From Chloroflexota bacterium (GTDB taxonomy: Bacteria; Chloroflexota; Dehalococcoidia; UBA2979): a stretch of 64,000 bases of DNA. Below are positions 1-37,149 of the stretch, piece after piece. Each line of letters opens with the position of its first letter. Position 1 is the first letter of the stretch. Under the pieces are notes generated by a model. That model searched no databases. It saw nothing but the letters and a program-made list of their open reading frames with translations, and had not been told where the DNA came from. The stretch is taken from NCBI GenBank assembly GCA_002716405.1, contig PBBA01000003.1:1-64000 (forward strand), read 5' to 3'. The translations under genes and the position numbers were made by a program.

Positions 1-1034
1 CTTCAGCATCTGGTATATCTGGATCAGCATCTGGATCAGCATCTGGATCAGCATCTGGATCAGCATCTGCTTCACATGCACACGACCACGCAGCAATCGG
101 TGGCTATAAACCAGCATCTGATGTTGTAAGCCACTCATTGGTAGTGGTAGATGTAGCAGAAATCAACGCACTACTCGGTGCAGATAAAATTGATTTTGCA
201 GCAGTAAAAGCGCTTTATGAAGATGGGAAAAATTCAGTTAAATCATCTGGAATTCGAACCATCGCAGGATTTGCACGTAGTGAACGTTCTGAGCGAATTT
301 GGGACGATTATACTGCGTACTACAACGACCCCACTTGGTTAGACACCTATGTAACCCATGCTATTGATGGCACTGGACCATTCGAAGGTGAAGCTGATGG
401 AGTTCGAAAGCAAGGTATTCAAAAAGGTATTCAAAACCAAATTATGATTGCTTGGGCACTTCATGAAGTTGTCGCTGCTGAAGAAAAGGTCGCTGCAGGA
501 AATATTGATGTAAATAAAGGTGCTCCGCATAACTGGGATGAATGGTGGGCTTTCTACCATGGAGACAACGATGCAGCACCTAAAGGCTCGCCTTTTGCAA
601 CGGCTGATAAAAGAGGTGGGAACTTTGGAACAGGTTCTGCTGTGAACGATGCTTTATTGAAAGCAACGAACGAAGGACTTGAAGCAAGTAAGAGTGGAGA
701 TGCATCAGCTTTAGCTGCTGCAGCTGACGAAATACTACGACAAGTAACCATCACTTACGTTCAGGCAACTATCCGGTACGGAAGTAAAATGCAAGCCGAT
801 CTTGAAGCTGGAGACGACGCAAAAGCTCGTATCCATCAAGCTGAAGGTTGGGCTTTCTTCCGTGTCATTGAGCCTCTCGTAGCTAAGGCAAATGCCTCAA
901 GTGCGAAAGATCTTAATGCTATCTACAACTTAGAAAATCAACCTTCTAAGTCAGCAGCTAAGGTACTTAGTGCCATAGAAGCTGCATATAGTGGTTTGAA
1001 CATCACTAAAGCAGAAGTAGGAACTTTACAATAA
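1..1034 (+). CDS. Fea1-like iron-assimilation (low-iron-inducible periplasmic) protein, 5' end off window
   Basis: The reading frame is open from base 3 to the stop at 1032-1034, so 343 residues are visible and the N-terminus, presumably with a lipoprotein or secretion signal, lies outside. The visible start is a Ser/Gly/Ala repeat linker followed by a His-rich HAHDH stretch. The body carries blocks I associate with the Fea1 family of algal and bacterial iron-assimilation proteins: GPFEGEADGVR, GAPHNWDEWWAFYHG (about nt 522-563), FATADKRGGNFGT and AEGWAFFRVIEP. Such proteins are extracytoplasmic and linked to iron uptake. An Fe3+ ABC importer lies 5-9 kb away, which fits but is not proof. A TTG at 138 could serve as a start, but the continuous upstream frame with protein-like composition argues the gene is simply truncated by the window edge. 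Confidence 0.72.
   Translation, partial: SASGISGSASGSASGSASGSASASHAHDHAAIGGYKPASDVVSHSLVVVDVAEINALLGADKIDFAAVKALYEDGKNSVKSSGIRTIAGFARSERSERIWDDYTAYYNDPTWLDTYVTHAIDGTGPFEGEADGVRKQGIQKGIQNQIMIAWALHEVVAAEEKVAAGNIDVNKGAPHNWDEWWAFYHGDNDAAPKGSPFATADKRGGNFGTGSAVNDALLKATNEGLEASKSGDASALAAAADEILRQVTITYVQATIRYGSKMQADLEAGDDAKARIHQAEGWAFFRVIEPLVAKANASSAKDLNAIYNLENQPSKSAAKVLSAIEAAYSGLNITKAEVGTLQ
21..68 (+). repeat. Four perfect 12-bp tandem repeats (GGATCAGCATCT)
   Basis: Units at 21-32, 33-44, 45-56 and 57-68 are identical, with a decayed related unit just upstream (3-20). In the frame of the Fea1-like gene each encodes Gly-Ser-Ala-Ser, so copy changes preserve the frame and only lengthen a flexible linker. 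More copies may lie off the window edge. Confidence 0.93.
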
Positions 1035-1048
1035 TAAAGTTTCATTAG

Positions 1049-1078
1049 TTCTAGGGGGACGATATCGTCCCCCTAGAA
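1049..1078. terminator. 30-base perfect palindrome after the Fea1-like gene
   Basis: Arm TTCTAGGGGGACGAT (1049-1063) is followed directly by its exact reverse complement ATCGTCCCCCTAGAA (1064-1078). As RNA it forms a very stable GC-rich stem with a minimal loop, starting 14 bases after the stop codon. There is no clear T-run on either side, so it could be an imperfect intrinsic terminator, an RNA-stabilising 3' hairpin, or a dimeric protein site. A terminator is the likeliest reading from position. Confidence 0.6.
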
Positions 1079-1097
1079 TCACATAAATGGGAACAAC

Positions 1098-1883
1098 ATG
1101 ACAAAAGTAACGATCGCAGGATATGGTTCAGTAGGTCATTATGTGGCAAAAATATTTGATAAATACAGCCCTGTTATATATGACCCTCCACTTGGTTATA
1201 ACGAACCGAACGATTTAATTGATACTGATTTTGTAATTATATGTGTCCCTACAGCACGTCTTATTTCAGGTGCATGTGATACATCCATTGTTGAAGAAGT
1301 TGTCAGACTTGCAGATCCTAATGAAGCAATTATTTGCCACAGTACAATTAGTGTAGGAACAACTGATAGACTAATTAAAGAAACAAAGAAACCTTTGGTT
1401 TTCGTGCCAGAGTATGCTGGGGAGTCAGAAGCACATCCTCTGAGAAATCCAGATAACAGAGAATTCTTAATATACGGAGGCTATGAACCAGCTGTTTCAA
1501 AAGTACAGTCACTCTACGAAAACGTATATACCAATAACAACATCCAGCACTTCCTTACAGAACCAAAAACTGCAGAAATTGTGAAATACATGGAGAATGC
1601 TTTTTTGGCAACAAAGGTCGCCTTCTGTAATGAATTCTATGATCTCTGCGTAGCAACTGATGTTGATTATGAAGAAGTAAAATCACTCTGGCTTCAAGAT
1701 AACCGTATCAATCAAAGTCATACTATCGTTACAAAAGAACGTGGATTTGGCGGACAATGTTTACCGAAAGATTTAGCGGCAGTTTGTAATACTGGACGTA
1801 ATATTGGCTCACCTATGCACATACTCGAAGCAGTAGAAGAGGCAAACAATAATCATCGGCAAAAAGCACAAGGTGAATTATAG
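1098..1883 (+). CDS. UDP-glucose/GDP-mannose 6-dehydrogenase-like protein, short form
   Basis: This resembles the family that oxidises nucleotide-sugar C6 to the uronic acid using NAD+. A Rossmann motif GYGSVG lies at residues 8-13, the central-helix block EIVKYMENAFLATK at 160-173, and the catalytic-Cys loop GFGGQCLPKD at 216-225 with Cys221. At 261 aa it stops soon after the catalytic loop and lacks the C-terminal nucleotide-sugar-binding domain that brings ordinary members to 400-450 aa. There is no frameshift: the stop is followed at once by the ATG of the next gene. It may be a distinct short subfamily with another substrate, or an ancient truncation. A GGGAAC stretch precedes the ATG. 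Confidence 0.75.
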   Translation: MTKVTIAGYGSVGHYVAKIFDKYSPVIYDPPLGYNEPNDLIDTDFVIICVPTARLISGACDTSIVEEVVRLADPNEAIICHSTISVGTTDRLIKETKKPLVFVPEYAGESEAHPLRNPDNREFLIYGGYEPAVSKVQSLYENVYTNNNIQHFLTEPKTAEIVKYMENAFLATKVAFCNEFYDLCVATDVDYEEVKSLWLQDNRINQSHTIVTKERGFGGQCLPKDLAAVCNTGRNIGSPMHILEAVEEANNNHRQKAQGEL

Positions 1884-2363
1884 ATGAATCATCTAAAATT
1901 ACGAATTCGAAGTTTGCGCCCTGAATTATGTGCATGCAACCAACATGCCTGGGTCACCTTACACCCTGTAGATCACGATAAGCATGTTCGGTTAATTATA
2001 CGAAAAGAGTTAATAAGCTTTTTAGACTTTAAAGATGAGAAAATCTTAAACCACACAGCTTATCTTTTATCGGGCTTTTTAGAGCTCTATCATGCAATCG
2101 GTTGTGAACCTGTAGCAATGCTCATTCATAATAAAGGTGTAAAAGCTGAAGTTAGATTACGCTTTTCAAATGGACACACACAAACAGATATAGCATGTGA
2201 CACACTCATGGCATTATTAGTTGCACATGAATGCCAGTTACCAATTTTACTATCCCAAACAACTTCTTCTCTCAGCAAACTGAGAGAAGAAGTTGTTACC
2301 TCAATACCTGATATCTTCCATGACACATTAATAGAACTTAAATTAATGTCGGATACTAGGTAA
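1884..2363 (+). CDS. DUF151/bifunctional-nuclease-like protein
   Basis: The start codon directly abuts the upstream stop, so it is probably co-transcribed with the dehydrogenase-like gene. Residues about 78-122 (VAMLIHNKGVKAEVRL, then TDIACDTLMALLVAHECQLPIL) follow the pattern of the DUF151/BFN fold, in which a beta hairpin is followed by a D-x-RPSDAIxLAL helix and a PI strand. The family's RPSD core is not conserved (ACDT here), so nuclease activity cannot be assumed. The 3' end carries a perfect 18-bp inverted repeat (2258-2297) that encodes part of the predicted C-terminus (about TTSSLSKLREEVV). The assignment is from pattern only and moderately uncertain. Confidence 0.5.
   Translation: MNHLKLRIRSLRPELCACNQHAWVTLHPVDHDKHVRLIIRKELISFLDFKDEKILNHTAYLLSGFLELYHAIGCEPVAMLIHNKGVKAEVRLRFSNGHTQTDIACDTLMALLVAHECQLPILLSQTTSSLSKLREEVVTSIPDIFHDTLIELKLMSDTR
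2258..2297. repeat. Perfect 18-bp inverted repeat with 4-base loop
   Basis: The left arm AACAACTTCTTCTCTCAG (2258-2275), loop CAAA (2276-2279) and exact right-arm complement (2280-2297) lie inside the 3' end of the DUF151-like gene. The gene on the other strand ends at 2375, so for its transcript the hairpin would lie about 80 bases past the stop. No T-run follows on either strand. Confidence 0.95.
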
Positions 2364-2374
2364 AATCCTTGAAG

Positions 2375-3784
2375 CTAGTTAAGAATAGTTTTCGATCTGA
2401 ACGTTATTAGAATCACTAAAGTTCCTAGTACGATCCAAATCAATGTTAAAAACCATGTCATTGCATTCCAAGATGTATATAAAGGAAACAAATTGTTAGT
2501 GAATTGAATAACAGGTGAACTCATTTCAAAAGGGTCAACTGCAATTACAATTTCACGACGATGTCCTGCTATAGCAAGCGCTACAGTAATCAATACTGAA
2601 TAGGTACCACTAATGATCAAAGGTAATCTAAATCGAGAATAGAAATTAATGACAAAAAAACTTAATGGAATCGTCAATAATGGAAATATTGTCATCAATG
2701 TCCTTCCAGAGAACCACCAACCCATCATGGTTATAGCCACAAAAGTAGCCATCAATATTTGCATTATAATTAAACTAAAAACAAGGCGATGCAGAGCATT
2801 CCCACGTATCGTAAGAGCTAATCCAGGAATTACAAAGAGAAGAATCGGAGCCCACCTTGCAATCCCAAAATGTCTGTCAATAAATAACCCCCACAACCTA
2901 TAGAATCTATCGAAAAAATTGACATGTCGTTCCACGATTGAGACGGTAGAATCACCAGCATAAACGAGATTTACATAGTACGGAGTCAAGGAATCATATG
3001 CAGCAAGATGAAAGAGAATATATGCAAAGGCAAACAATAATCCAACCACTATAAGTAATATTCGCGCAATTGAAGTAGATTTCCATAGAGTGTACAAACC
3101 AACAAGTGCTGCTAAGGGAACATATTTTACAGCAAGCCAAGGCAGTGTAGATATACAAATCAATATTGTTAAAGAACGTATGACATGTACCCGATCACTT
3201 TTCACAAGAAGAAGTAATGACAATACAAGAAAAAATGCAGCAGGTATTTCAGGATATATTTCAGAAGAGTAGATAAATGCTGAAGCACTGAGAGCAATAA
3301 TTATCGTTACCAACCAAACAAATAGCGGTTTCAACGGCATCAATTTCAATGTCAGAAGGTAAGATAAAACCCAAGTAGAAGCTGATAATAAAACCATTTG
3401 AATTTGCGTCCCGATAAGACCGCCCATAAGAAAACCAGGAATTAATAATATAGTTAGACCAATATTATGTGGGCTGACAAGTCTTCCATCTTCCAGAGGA
3501 ACAGATTGTGTCCAAAGTCCATCAGGATGATCAAAAAAAGAACGATAAGAGTGGTCTTGATATTGAGCCCGCAAATCAATATTACTGTCTTGAATAAGAC
3601 TTTGCGTTGTAATCAAATAAAACGGTTCATCAGCTGTAATTGATGCCCCTCGTGTTGCTCTAATATCAATAGAAAAAAAATATACTAAAATTAAAACTAC
3701 AAACAGTGCTAAAGAACCCAATATCTCTGGACGTTTTAAGATTTGGATATTTAGAGCCAAAAAAATTCTCCAATACAAATACAT
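2375..3784 (-). CDS. Polytopic membrane protein, GT-C glycosyltransferase-like
   Basis: This 469-aa protein has roughly ten to twelve hydrophobic segments from residue about 22 to the C-terminus. The first extracytoplasmic loop contains TADEPFYLITTQSL with Asp52-Glu53, the acidic pair typical of GT-C transferases that use polyprenyl-phosphate sugars (PMT/ArnT-like folds). Later loops have no motif I can name. It would act in the cytoplasmic membrane, moving sugars onto lipids, proteins or wall polymers. It ends only 11 bases from the oppositely oriented DUF151-like gene and lies 10 bases downstream of the nitroreductase gene, so it is probably the last gene of that transcript. Membrane topology is clear; the enzyme class is inferred. 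Confidence 0.6.
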   Translation of the reverse strand: MYLYWRIFLALNIQILKRPEILGSLALFVVLILVYFFSIDIRATRGASITADEPFYLITTQSLIQDSNIDLRAQYQDHSYRSFFDHPDGLWTQSVPLEDGRLVSPHNIGLTILLIPGFLMGGLIGTQIQMVLLSASTWVLSYLLTLKLMPLKPLFVWLVTIIIALSASAFIYSSEIYPEIPAAFFLVLSLLLLVKSDRVHVIRSLTILICISTLPWLAVKYVPLAALVGLYTLWKSTSIARILLIVVGLLFAFAYILFHLAAYDSLTPYYVNLVYAGDSTVSIVERHVNFFDRFYRLWGLFIDRHFGIARWAPILLFVIPGLALTIRGNALHRLVFSLIIMQILMATFVAITMMGWWFSGRTLMTIFPLLTIPLSFFVINFYSRFRLPLIISGTYSVLITVALAIAGHRREIVIAVDPFEMSSPVIQFTNNLFPLYTSWNAMTWFLTLIWIVLGTLVILITFRSKTILN

Positions 3785-3794
3785 CTAAGTATCA

Positions 3795-4367
3795 TTATGT
3801 AAAGTTGTACCAATTTACTATTGGCTGACGGCGTTGAGGTTCAGTATTCAGATCTTTTTTTCCATATCCCATATAAATGTAGCCTACAATGCGTTCATTT
3901 TTCCCCAATCCCAAAAAATTAAATACTCCTTTTTCATAAACTAATTTTCCCGTACTCCATTTCGTATTTAATTCTTCTGCATATGCAGCAAGAAGTAAAT
4001 TTTGAATAGCACAGGCACAGGCAGCATAATCCTCAAGAATCCGATCAGAGTCATCACTATCGTGTGAAAACTGGGTCACTATTATCATCAAAGGAGAACG
4101 GTAAAATTTCCTCTCAATAACAGCGATTTCCTTAGTAATATCTTCCTGAGCATACCCCTTAACGCGGTAATCATCTTGAATGGCACGCAATAATTGCTCA
4201 CGTGCTTTTCCTGCAATTACATGAAATCTCCAAGGCTCAGTACGTCGATGGTTAGGAGCCCAAGTTGCGGCTTCAATTATTTTCGAAATCAAATCTTTGG
4301 ACGGTATTTTTTCAACATCCCACTCTGTTGCAGTTCTACGATACTTTAGTGCGCTTAGTACATCCAT
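3795..4367 (-). CDS. Nitroreductase-family FMN oxidoreductase
   Basis: A 190-aa single-domain flavoprotein. The N-terminal YRRTATEWDVEKIP block (residues about 9-22) and TWAPNHRRTEPWRFHVIAG (about 35-53) match the FMN-phosphate-binding Arg-Arg and the WAPN/EPWRF motifs of YdjA-like nitroreductases. The C-terminal IVGYIYMGYG strand is also characteristic. Members reduce nitro groups, enones or other acceptors with NAD(P)H, and the substrate cannot be read from sequence. It lies between the GT-C-like gene (10 bases) and the VOC gene (27 bases), all leftward. Confidence 0.85.
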   Translation of the reverse strand: MDVLSALKYRRTATEWDVEKIPSKDLISKIIEAATWAPNHRRTEPWRFHVIAGKAREQLLRAIQDDYRVKGYAQEDITKEIAVIERKFYRSPLMIIVTQFSHDSDDSDRILEDYAACACAIQNLLLAAYAEELNTKWSTGKLVYEKGVFNFLGLGKNERIVGYIYMGYGKKDLNTEPQRRQPIVNWYNFT

Positions 4368-4861: not shown

Positions 4862-6514
4862 TCAACGTAAATGAGTTGAATTACGAATAACAACTAACCA
4901 AGTCAACACTGCTGACAAAATAACTAATAACAATGATGCCACTCCTGCATCAGCCAAAAATCCAGCTTCATTAAGAGCCCAAATATGAGTGGCAAGTGTC
5001 TTAAATCCTATTGGTGAGGCAAGTAATGTAGCAGGAAGTTCTTTCATAGTTGAGAGCATCACCAAACCTCCACCTGCTGCCAAAGCAGGTAACATTTGAG
5101 GAAGTTCAATTTTTATCAATAATAGCAATCGACCGGTACCAAGAGTACGTGCTACCTCACTGAGACGATTGTCAAGATTTAAAACTCCAACTTGAGCTGT
5201 TCGATATGCCTGTGCACCAAAATGGATAATATATGCAAGTAGTAATATCGGTAATGTTTGATAGAGAAAATAGAACCCTGTGACATTGATAGATAGAAAA
5301 ACTATTGATAATGCAACCACTAAACCAGGTAAAGCGAAACCTGACACGATTATCGCATTAATGGGAGTAATTAAAACACTGCGAAAACGTGTCACAAGAA
5401 AAGCAATAGGTAGTACTAAAAGTACAGTGGCTAAAGCTGCAGAAACGCTCATACCTACAGTATTAACTGTAGGTAAAGCAAGTGTCATCAAATCTGAAGT
5501 AGTTGCGAACCCGGCAGTTTGATTAACGAACCCTCTATATGCCCACCAAAAAAGAATAATGATTGGTGAGAATAATCCCGCACCAAGTGTAATTAATAGC
5601 GTAAGCAATGCAATTGGCTGCCAACGTCCTAATTTAAGCTTAATAGGACGAATTGCAGGGTTATCATTTACTAAATTTAATTCCTTGCTAAAGAATCTTT
5701 CACCTAAAACAATTAACAATGCCACAATCCCTAGAACCAAACCTAAGGCCAAAGACAATTCAGTATCAGCTAAGCGGGTATTGAATATTCGAGTGGTCAG
5801 TGTAGAATATCCCATCAGTTGAACAACGCCAAAATCGCTCACAACATACAAAAAAATTAATAGCGTACCTGCACGTATAGTAGGAAAAATTTGAGGTAAG
5901 GTTACACGTTTAAATGTGGCCAATGAATTATAGCCCAACAAGCGAGATGCTTCTTCAGTTGAAGATGGTAATGTAGAAAAACGAGCAGCTACTGGTAAAT
6001 ACACATAAGGAAACGTTATAAAAGTTAATACTAAAAAAGAACCAATATAGCCATCAAGTCTATGAAATTGCTCAATACCAAGTGGTAAAAATATAAACTC
6101 AAAAAAACCACCTGGCGAGTAAGCAGAAATTAGAGTGGTACCAACGACAAACGAGGGAAAAACCAAAGGTAATGGACACACAATTCTCCAAAATGAACCC
6201 CAATACACATCGGTACGAATGGTAATCCATGCCAACACTACCCCAATGAAAGAGGCTACAATCGAAACAGTGCACGCTAAATAGAGAGTTTTCATTAAAG
6301 GGTAGAAAGTTAATTTGGAAAAGAAAATATTCGCCAGATCATTAATATTGACTATATTACGCACTGCCAAATAAAAAAATGGAACGGCAAACAACAGGGC
6401 AACAACAATAGACACTAGAAGTAAAAGAACAGGTGTTTTTTCTTTTACCTCTAGTGCACTAAATGAATTCTTCTCTTCACTATCAGATCGACTAAATATC
6501 GAATCCTGCCTCAC
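4862..6514 (-). CDS. fbpB: Fe3+ ABC transporter permease, fused double-domain (FbpB-like)
   Basis: A 550-aa membrane protein with about twelve segments and two copies of the permease EAA loop: EEASRLLGYNSLATFKRVTLPQ (about 187-208) and SEVARTLGTGRLLLLIKIELP (about 455-475). This duplicated layout is standard for iron(III) permeases of the FbpB/SfuB/AfuB type. The start is GTG at 6514 with GGAG seven bases upstream, inside the 3' end of the substrate-binding-protein gene (23-base overlap), which points to translational coupling. It would carry Fe3+ through the cytoplasmic membrane, driven by the ATPase encoded at 7569. Thiamine or phosphonate permeases share the fold, but the binding protein favours iron. 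Confidence 0.85.
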   Translation of the reverse strand: MRQDSIFSRSDSEEKNSFSALEVKEKTPVLLLLVSIVVALLFAVPFFYLAVRNIVNINDLANIFFSKLTFYPLMKTLYLACTVSIVASFIGVVLAWITIRTDVYWGSFWRIVCPLPLVFPSFVVGTTLISAYSPGGFFEFIFLPLGIEQFHRLDGYIGSFLVLTFITFPYVYLPVAARFSTLPSSTEEASRLLGYNSLATFKRVTLPQIFPTIRAGTLLIFLYVVSDFGVVQLMGYSTLTTRIFNTRLADTELSLALGLVLGIVALLIVLGERFFSKELNLVNDNPAIRPIKLKLGRWQPIALLTLLITLGAGLFSPIIILFWWAYRGFVNQTAGFATTSDLMTLALPTVNTVGMSVSAALATVLLVLPIAFLVTRFRSVLITPINAIIVSGFALPGLVVALSIVFLSINVTGFYFLYQTLPILLLAYIIHFGAQAYRTAQVGVLNLDNRLSEVARTLGTGRLLLLIKIELPQMLPALAAGGGLVMLSTMKELPATLLASPIGFKTLATHIWALNEAGFLADAGVASLLLVILSAVLTWLVVIRNSTHLR

Positions 6515-35986: not shown

Positions 35987-37149
35987 TGAATATTTACCAC
36001 CTCACCAAGTATTTCACGAAATAAGACAAGTAATTCATCAGATGGATTTGTTCCATGTCGTTCTTGGTAATAACGCACAAAAAGTTCTTCAGGTTTCAAA
36101 TCTTGTAATGAGACAGTAGAAATATTTTCTTCAAGCCGATCATAATCTAAACGAATATCGACTATCCCATCAGCACTATCTCGCATTTTTTGAGCTATAC
36201 CAGCTTCAGGAGCATCCACATCTAATACTGCACGTATATAAGCATTTTTATATTGTTCTGATGCAACTAAAACTTGTTCAGGTGTACCTCGTAATTCGAT
36301 TAATGGCTTACCGGAGGTCAGTGGAATAATTTTTTGCTGAACAGGTCGATTTGGAACTAGATCAACTATCCGTACTATTTTTTGTTGCCCACGTTCACCA
36401 AAATCTAACTGTAATATTGACCCCGCATAAGCTGTTGCACCGTTGGGAACTCCTAAAATTTCTTGTGGATGATGAATATGCCCTAGAGCTAAATATTGCG
36501 GACTTGAAGGTAATCGATCTTTATCTATTCCATATGCGATATCTATATGTAATCGACGTTCAGAACCGTCAATATCTGCAAGTAATGCGCCATCGACAAA
36601 TACATGACCAACTAATAAATGGATCGCTCCAGAGGTATATCCTTGTACGACATTGCTATATACGGTTTCAACTGCATCTTGATACATGCTGAGCGTTTTT
36701 TGTGCATCAGAAAGAACTTCAATCGCATTCAATGCTTTCCCATCAGGTACCCATGGAATAGCAGCAATTTCTGCCAGTACATCACCACGATTAATTCTAA
36801 TGATGCCTCCAGCATCATGTGAACGAACGTAGGCTTGTGTGTGTACATTTAGTAAATCACTCAATTGTCCAACCGCATTAAGCTTATGTGCACTATCATG
36901 ATTGCCAGCTATGAGTATTACTTCAATATCGTTAGTAACAAATTCTCTCAACGCACCGAATAATATCCTATCTGAATCAGAGGAAGGAGAATTGGTATCC
37001 CAAATATCACCTGCAACAAGTACTACATCAACATTTTCAGAAACAGCAATATCTTTAATCTCTGTTAGCACAGCTTCAAATTCTGAAGCACGACTTCGTC
37101 CACGGATTTGCCTACCAATATGCCAGTCAGCAGTATGTAAAAACCGCAT
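35983..37149 (-). CDS. sbcD: SbcD/Mre11-type nuclease
   Basis: A 388-aa Mn-dependent metallophosphoesterase that cuts DNA ends and hairpins with SbcC. Phosphoesterase motifs in order: TADWHIGRQ (Asp8, His10), VAGDIWDTNSPS (Asp48), IAGNHDSAHKL (Asn83, His84), LLVGHVFVDG and LALGHIHHPQ. The C-terminal third would be the capping and SbcC-binding region. It follows herA by 23 bases and is coupled to sbcC. Confidence 0.95.
   Translation of the reverse strand: MRFLHTADWHIGRQIRGRSRASEFEAVLTEIKDIAVSENVDVVLVAGDIWDTNSPSSDSDRILFGALREFVTNDIEVILIAGNHDSAHKLNAVGQLSDLLNVHTQAYVRSHDAGGIIRINRGDVLAEIAAIPWVPDGKALNAIEVLSDAQKTLSMYQDAVETVYSNVVQGYTSGAIHLLVGHVFVDGALLADIDGSERRLHIDIAYGIDKDRLPSSPQYLALGHIHHPQEILGVPNGATAYAGSILQLDFGERGQQKIVRIVDLVPNRPVQQKIIPLTSGKPLIELRGTPEQVLVASEQYKNAYIRAVLDVDAPEAGIAQKMRDSADGIVDIRLDYDRLEENISTVSLQDLKPEELFVRYYQERHGTNPSDELLVLFREILGEVVNIQ

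Follow-up and report, generated by a model that had tools for sequence, protein, structure and literature searches.

The locus described here lies near the start of the window, that is, the whole 64,000-nt stretch of contig PBBA01000003.1 that was analysed, from the draft genome of a Chloroflexota bacterium (hereafter G000). Close to the 3' end of an open reading frame that encodes a protein of 159 amino acids, two 18-nt arms pair at 18 of 18 positions around a four-base CAAA loop and thus form a perfect inverted repeat (Table 1). The hairpin ends 66 nt before the end of the stop codon, and 77 nt separate it from the 3' end of the convergent open reading frame. It runs from the third base of codon Q125 to codon V138, the spacer consists of the last base of S131 together with K132, and there is no N within the site. 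The coordinates and the pairing given in an earlier, sequence-only reading of this DNA are exact. When the RNA of positions 2240-2320 is folded, the plus strand reaches −28.3 kcal/mol (z −8.7) and the minus strand −29.9 kcal/mol (z −6.0), and none of 200 shuffles folds as well in either case. The terminator scan, which relies on a stem plus a T-tract, found nothing resembling a terminator on either strand of 2258-2297, and region 1000-4000 has no Rfam match at E ≤1. The same reading had proposed a genome search for the 18-mer, and in the 1.29 Mb of the genome that was read this search found no copy with up to two mismatches besides the two arms themselves and one place (L039:17440) with three mismatches; on these counts, a mobile repeat was rejected.

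Table 1. Coordinates of the features discussed in the text (positions in the window unless a contig handle is given).
Feature	Position	Strand	Remarks
DUF151-like ORF (by predicted fold), 159 aa	1884-2363	+	hairpin at residues 125-138; low-confidence segment 126-141 overlaps it
Left arm of perfect inverted repeat	2258-2275	+	tentative recipient (rewritten) arm; differences 6/18 vs G001, 7/18 vs G002
Spacer CAAA, 4 nt	2276-2279	+	orientation as in G001 (CAAA) and G002 (CAAG), not inverted
Right arm of perfect inverted repeat	2280-2297	+	tentative donor (template) arm; differences 3/18 vs G001, 7/18 vs G002
Convergent ORF, 469 aa, membrane-type by eye	2375-3784	−	faces the hairpin with its 3' end; unmatched in Pfam and NCBIfam
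Permease-like ORF (by eye), 550 aa	4862-6514	−	
SbcD gene	36379-37149		in the window; profile search, over cut-off
Intergenic perfect palindromes	L015:6544-6591, L015:2039-2080, L031:11934-11975, L031:7278-7319, L063:959-1002, L064:3433-3475		

Neither Pfam nor NCBIfam gives a significant family assignment for the 159-residue protein, and no DUF151 profile matched it in Pfam (maximum E 10, with filters that drop most weak matches) or in NCBIfam (maximum E 1). A fold search with its predicted structure, which was built from three sequences and is of low confidence (mean pLDDT 59), returned only four PDB matches at E ≤0.001, all of them to the DUF151 protein TM0160 (chains of 1sj5 and 1vjl). The probability of these matches is 1.00, but the TM-scores are 0.37-0.43 and the rmsd 10-12, on a low-confidence model. 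The DUF151-like label of the earlier reading thus finds its counterpart in the fold search and none in the profile libraries, and as a prediction from the structural model it appears reasonable. The family is rare, with matches at E ≤0.001 in nine of 294 genomes of the class, including the three of this genus. All four aligned members share residues C16, C18 and H21, which, judging from this conservation, may form a metal site. Residues 126-141 make up one of four low-confidence segments in the model, and in the protein alignment the same stretch differs in length among relatives; the low pLDDT and the length variation together place the hairpin in a linker that follows the last of the predicted core strands. 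Compared with the congener G001, four residues are changed in the left arm (T126, T127, L130 and S131) and two in the right arm (R134 and E135).

Comparison with relatives, likewise proposed in the earlier reading, was carried out across three genomes of the genus (G000, G001 and G002), all of which carry the gene. At the orthologous site, 10 of 18 positions pair in G001 and 8 of 18 in G002, so that eight and ten pairs, respectively, are broken; by our own estimate, unrelated arms at a GC content of 0.38 would be expected to pair at about 5 of 18 positions, and G002 is only modestly above this level. The alignment with G001 is free of gaps across both arms and the spacer, with 16 differences among 185 flanking positions, and G002 has one extra codon that aligns just upstream of the arms. 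Seven pairs (3, 4, 5, 10, 13, 16 and 18) are broken in both congeners. Because G001 and G002 are identical at pairs 4 and 13 and share the same left base at pair 3, pairing at these positions seems, under parsimony applied by eye, to have been gained towards G000. The changes that are firmly derived, in that both congeners agree against G000, are those at left positions 3 and 13 and at the right partners of 4 and 14, whereas left positions 14 and 16 differ among all three genomes. The ancestor is poorly fixed because only two congeners were compared and these are themselves much diverged here. By this comparison of aligned genomes, the perfect pairing is lineage-specific, and the combination of partial pairing in the congeners with the lack of an indel argues against the insertion of a duplicate and also against a conserved RNA structure.

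Other palindromes occur in the window and elsewhere in the genome. Positions 1049-1078, between a Fea1-like ORF and the ORF at 1098, hold a perfect 15-bp palindrome without a spacer, which is identical over its 15 bp in G002 and has 13-bp arms and a 3-nt spacer in G001. It is possibly a terminator or an operator; the terminator scan did not list it. Near the 5' end of the permease-like ORF, a 17-nt inverted repeat (6413-6456) is 94% complementary. Six intergenic perfect palindromes in G000 have stems 20-24 bp long with 0-3 nt between the arms, and in one of them the spacer is NN.

The earlier reading had called the hairpin far beyond chance for codon-constrained DNA, and this judgement holds against synonymous-codon shuffles that preserve every protein and the codon use of each gene. 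Counting stems with perfect pairing and loops of up to 20 nt in 1128 ORFs of at least 100 aa (1.10 Mb; ORFs containing N were dropped), we found 33 coding stems of at least 12 bp in G000, compared to a mean of 2.6 in 20 shuffles; a looser set of ORFs of at least 80 aa gave 36. Two stems reach at least 18 bp, as against none in the shuffles, and not one of the 20 shuffles contained a stem of at least 16 bp. The 18-bp hairpin is therefore beyond chance; it ties with L014:457-501 as the longest perfect coding stem in the 1.29 Mb. A comparable excess was observed in G001, with 40 coding stems of at least 12 bp compared to 4.0 in 10 shuffles, ORFs with N being retained in this case.

The excess depends strongly on the perfection of the repeats. 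When G000 and G001 were pooled (2033 of 2524 ORFs, the 491 with N having been dropped; 1.96 Mb; eight shuffles), coding 15-bp arms with zero, one, two and three mismatches occurred 7, 38, 81 and 555 times, which corresponds to an excess over the shuffle mean of 56-fold (a value based on those 7 occurrences and a shuffle mean near 0.1), 12.7-fold, 1.5-fold and 1.2-fold, respectively. The ratio near 1 at three mismatches suggests that local composition accounts for little of the excess, and the genome-wide pattern fits a process that pushes repeats to perfection. These measurements come from two genomes of one genus, and we do not claim that the rate is unusual; the available part of a broader survey describes inverted repeats in prokaryote coding regions as generally normally represented, with wide differences among genera (PMC4060949). 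Broken down by the number of mismatches, the coding excess could serve as a simple statistic for comparing lineages or repair-gene repertoires.

Among the 73 coding hairpins of the two genomes (33 in G000 and 40 in G001), 59 have a usable orthologue in the other genome; the remaining 14 were left out because they had no match spanning the hairpin or because their arms contained a gap or an N. Only 10 of the 59 are still perfect in the other genome, and because most are not, genome comparison can be used to date such hairpins. The differences are distributed between the two arms more lopsidedly than expected: the sum of (L−R)^2 is 380 compared to 217 when randomised, with 7 of 2000 randomisations reaching 380, and for the two genomes taken separately the observed values are reached in 50 and 16 of 2000. 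Expressed as a ratio, lopsidedness is 1.77 at the hairpins, whereas 2613 random coding sites, out of 3000 that were drawn, give 1.03; a ratio as high as the observed one occurs in 84 of 5000 control sets with matching numbers of differences. Per hairpin, the arms showed no significant extra divergence over their flanks (mean difference 0.021, Wilcoxon p 0.31), which speaks against a simple hot-spot view; pooled, the divergence is 0.188 in the arms and 0.158 in the flanks (Fisher p 0.0023).

Across the 59 hairpins, 51 pairs were changed on both sides compared to 38.6 expected (1330 vs 1330.2 at control sites), and 20 of the 51 were re-paired, so that selection for structure is possible at some hairpin sites other than the one at 2258-2297. 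One such site, the 15-bp coding hairpin L064:8545-8582, is fully paired in G001 and has one difference per arm, both in the same pair; from this compensatory pattern it is a candidate for a real structural role. Two other long coding hairpins pair poorly in their G001 orthologues, L022:6689-6726 (17 bp) at 2 of 17 positions and L014:457-501 (18 bp) at 11 of 18, and judging from these alignments may be further cases of the process discussed below.

We consider that the hairpin at 2258-2297 probably arose through quasipalindrome correction, by template switching during replication. The observations behind this interpretation are the perfect repeat here, the imperfect repeats in both congeners, the absence of an indel relative to G001 and a coding excess in two genomes that rises steeply as the repeats approach perfection; the lopsided distribution of differences over the 59 hairpins is likewise in line with it. 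Under this model, the ancestral site would have been an imperfect inverted repeat in the variable linker. The nascent strand, having copied one arm and the CAAA spacer, would have folded back on itself and been extended with its own copy of the first arm as the template; upon return to the normal template, the second arm would have been left as an exact reverse complement of the first. Such an exchange would leave the lengths of the arms and the spacer unchanged and thus keep the reading frame, and the resulting amino acid changes would land in a linker that presumably tolerates them. We infer that one single event completed the pairing and that it took the fold-back (intramolecular) route, under which a spacer that is not inverted, as seen here, is allowed; the role of the right arm as donor is a weak inference. 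The arms differ unequally from G001 and equally, at seven positions each, from G002, so that this site, taken by itself, does not reveal the rewriting of one arm. Moreover, because the firmly derived changes fall two in each arm and the two arms are equally distant from G002, ordinary substitutions are needed besides the event, whichever arm was the donor.

Several other explanations have to be weighed against quasipalindrome correction. That independent point substitutions built up by chance in a rapidly evolving linker would agree with the strong differences of this linker among all three genomes and with the spread of the firmly derived changes over both arms; it is nevertheless quite unlikely given that 20 codon shuffles produced no stem of at least 16 bp and that the enrichment rises steeply with perfection. 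The suggestion in the earlier reading of a 3'-end RNA structure for the convergent gene belongs to a wider class of functional RNA or DNA elements, such as a 3'-UTR stabiliser or a terminator of that gene newly evolved in this lineage. The high stability on both strands and the position past the convergent ORF's 3' end would suit such an element. However, full pairing is absent from both congeners, the site lacks a terminator-like signal and an Rfam counterpart, and the intergenic palindrome at 1049-1078, kept in both congeners, illustrates by contrast what a retained element looks like; the suggestion of a 3'-end structure was accordingly set aside, and we regard a functional element as very unlikely.

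An artefact of the assembly or the library, namely a fold-back chimera of reads, comes to mind because the source is a draft genome of 12 contigs and 84.5% completeness in which, in addition to the NN-spaced intergenic palindrome, one coding stem contains N. Yet the frame, the length and the flanking homology are intact at the hairpin, the site is free of N, the spacer has its orthologous orientation and the separate genome G001 holds comparable coding palindromes, all of which renders an artefact highly improbable. The recent inverted duplication that the earlier reading had offered finds no support as an insertion. Two exact inverted copies with no other close copy in 1.29 Mb are what an inserted duplicate of one arm would leave behind, but G001 is equal in length with no gap across the arms and the spacer, and orthologous residues align with both arms, so that this explanation has almost no probability. 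The idea of a duplication was, however, near the mark if one arm was rewritten from the other, as quasipalindrome correction would have it.

A missing repair nuclease was considered as a cause of the hairpin and set aside: SbcD (over the cut-off) and RecJ were found in all three genomes and XseA, the large subunit of exonuclease VII, in two (G000 and G002), with no match in G001, which is 94% complete. The exonuclease I C-terminal domain was found in none of the three, an absence that says little because the model matched only one of 14 control genomes (E. coli). The earlier reading had also proposed a site for the SbcCD nuclease; the SbcD gene is indeed present in the window, but nothing that we found ties it to the hairpin. 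With regard to replication, all eight 8-kb bins of the window have a negative GC skew, as do 13 of the 16 bins that cover the contig, the last of which spans 4 kb. By the usual GC-skew rule, if valid here, the fork moves leftward and the strand that copies the right arm before the left is the leading strand. Template-switch events in E. coli are reported to show a strand bias (PMC7202029, in the part available), towards the leading strand if the title of a reference cited there is followed. We place no weight on the direction of replication because there is a single case, the donor arm is uncertain and the skew rule is an assumption.

Taken together, these results present the event at 2258-2297 as a new instance of a known process and not as a new kind of element. 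If quasipalindrome correction is the right interpretation, the hairpin is a natural case in which a multi-base protein change is achievable in one step by a known mutation process. More generally, a striking coding hairpin need not be functional, given that the two genomes hold tens of them. A broader proposition, that template switching at short inverted repeats is frequent enough in this small-genome, Chloroflexi-related genus to make it a main source of clustered amino acid replacements in linkers, appears unlikely; if it were true, hairpins like this one would mark recent multi-residue jumps across the proteome.

An excess of short perfect inverted repeats in bacteria, or in prokaryotes more widely, was reportedly found by van Noort in 2003 and by Ladoukakis and Eyre-Walker in 2008. 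As in our data, perfect repeats are said to exceed imperfect ones in that work, and the excess is said to be read as mutational correction; unlike it, the excess reported here concerns coding DNA only and is measured against synonymous-codon shuffles in two related genomes. In an excerpt of a later paper, van Noort is cited for imperfect repeats mutating towards perfect ones (PMC6060812), and two further papers, in the parts available, are general inverted-repeat surveys only (PMC10434271, PMC13155455). Among the matches listed in literature from 2020, there was no study of template switching or quasipalindromes in this lineage, and no match was a bacterial-genome study of template-switching hairpins as multinucleotide mutation.

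That quasipalindromes are corrected through template switching is established for phage T4, E. coli and yeast (PMC7202029, PMC8604942). The closest bacterial precedents are the Ripley model and the thyA hot spot and lacZ reporters of E. coli (PMC7202029), in which, likewise, an imperfect repeat is perfected by copying one arm; the lacZ reporter is based on an 18-bp quasipalindrome. However, the E. coli cases, as far as that excerpt describes them, were selected in the laboratory, whereas the present event is deduced from natural genomes and replaced bases without a frameshift. Homogenisation of arms in coding genes of S. cerevisiae (PMC8604942) similarly involves clustered changes, a perfect repeat, several neighbouring amino acid replacements and an intact frame. 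In the yeast REG2 case, as given in the available text, the repeat is 16 bp and the spacer is inverted, in contrast to the 18-bp arms and the spacer of unchanged orientation in this Chloroflexi-related bacterium; moreover, the yeast events were placed on branches of a strain tree, a placement that the event at 2258-2297 does not have. Finally, template switching is described as creating RNA hairpins (PMC8794818, in part), and there too a one-off event yields a perfectly paired stem, but those stems lie in RNA genes, whereas the hairpin at 2258-2297 lies in protein-coding DNA and gives no sign of an RNA role.
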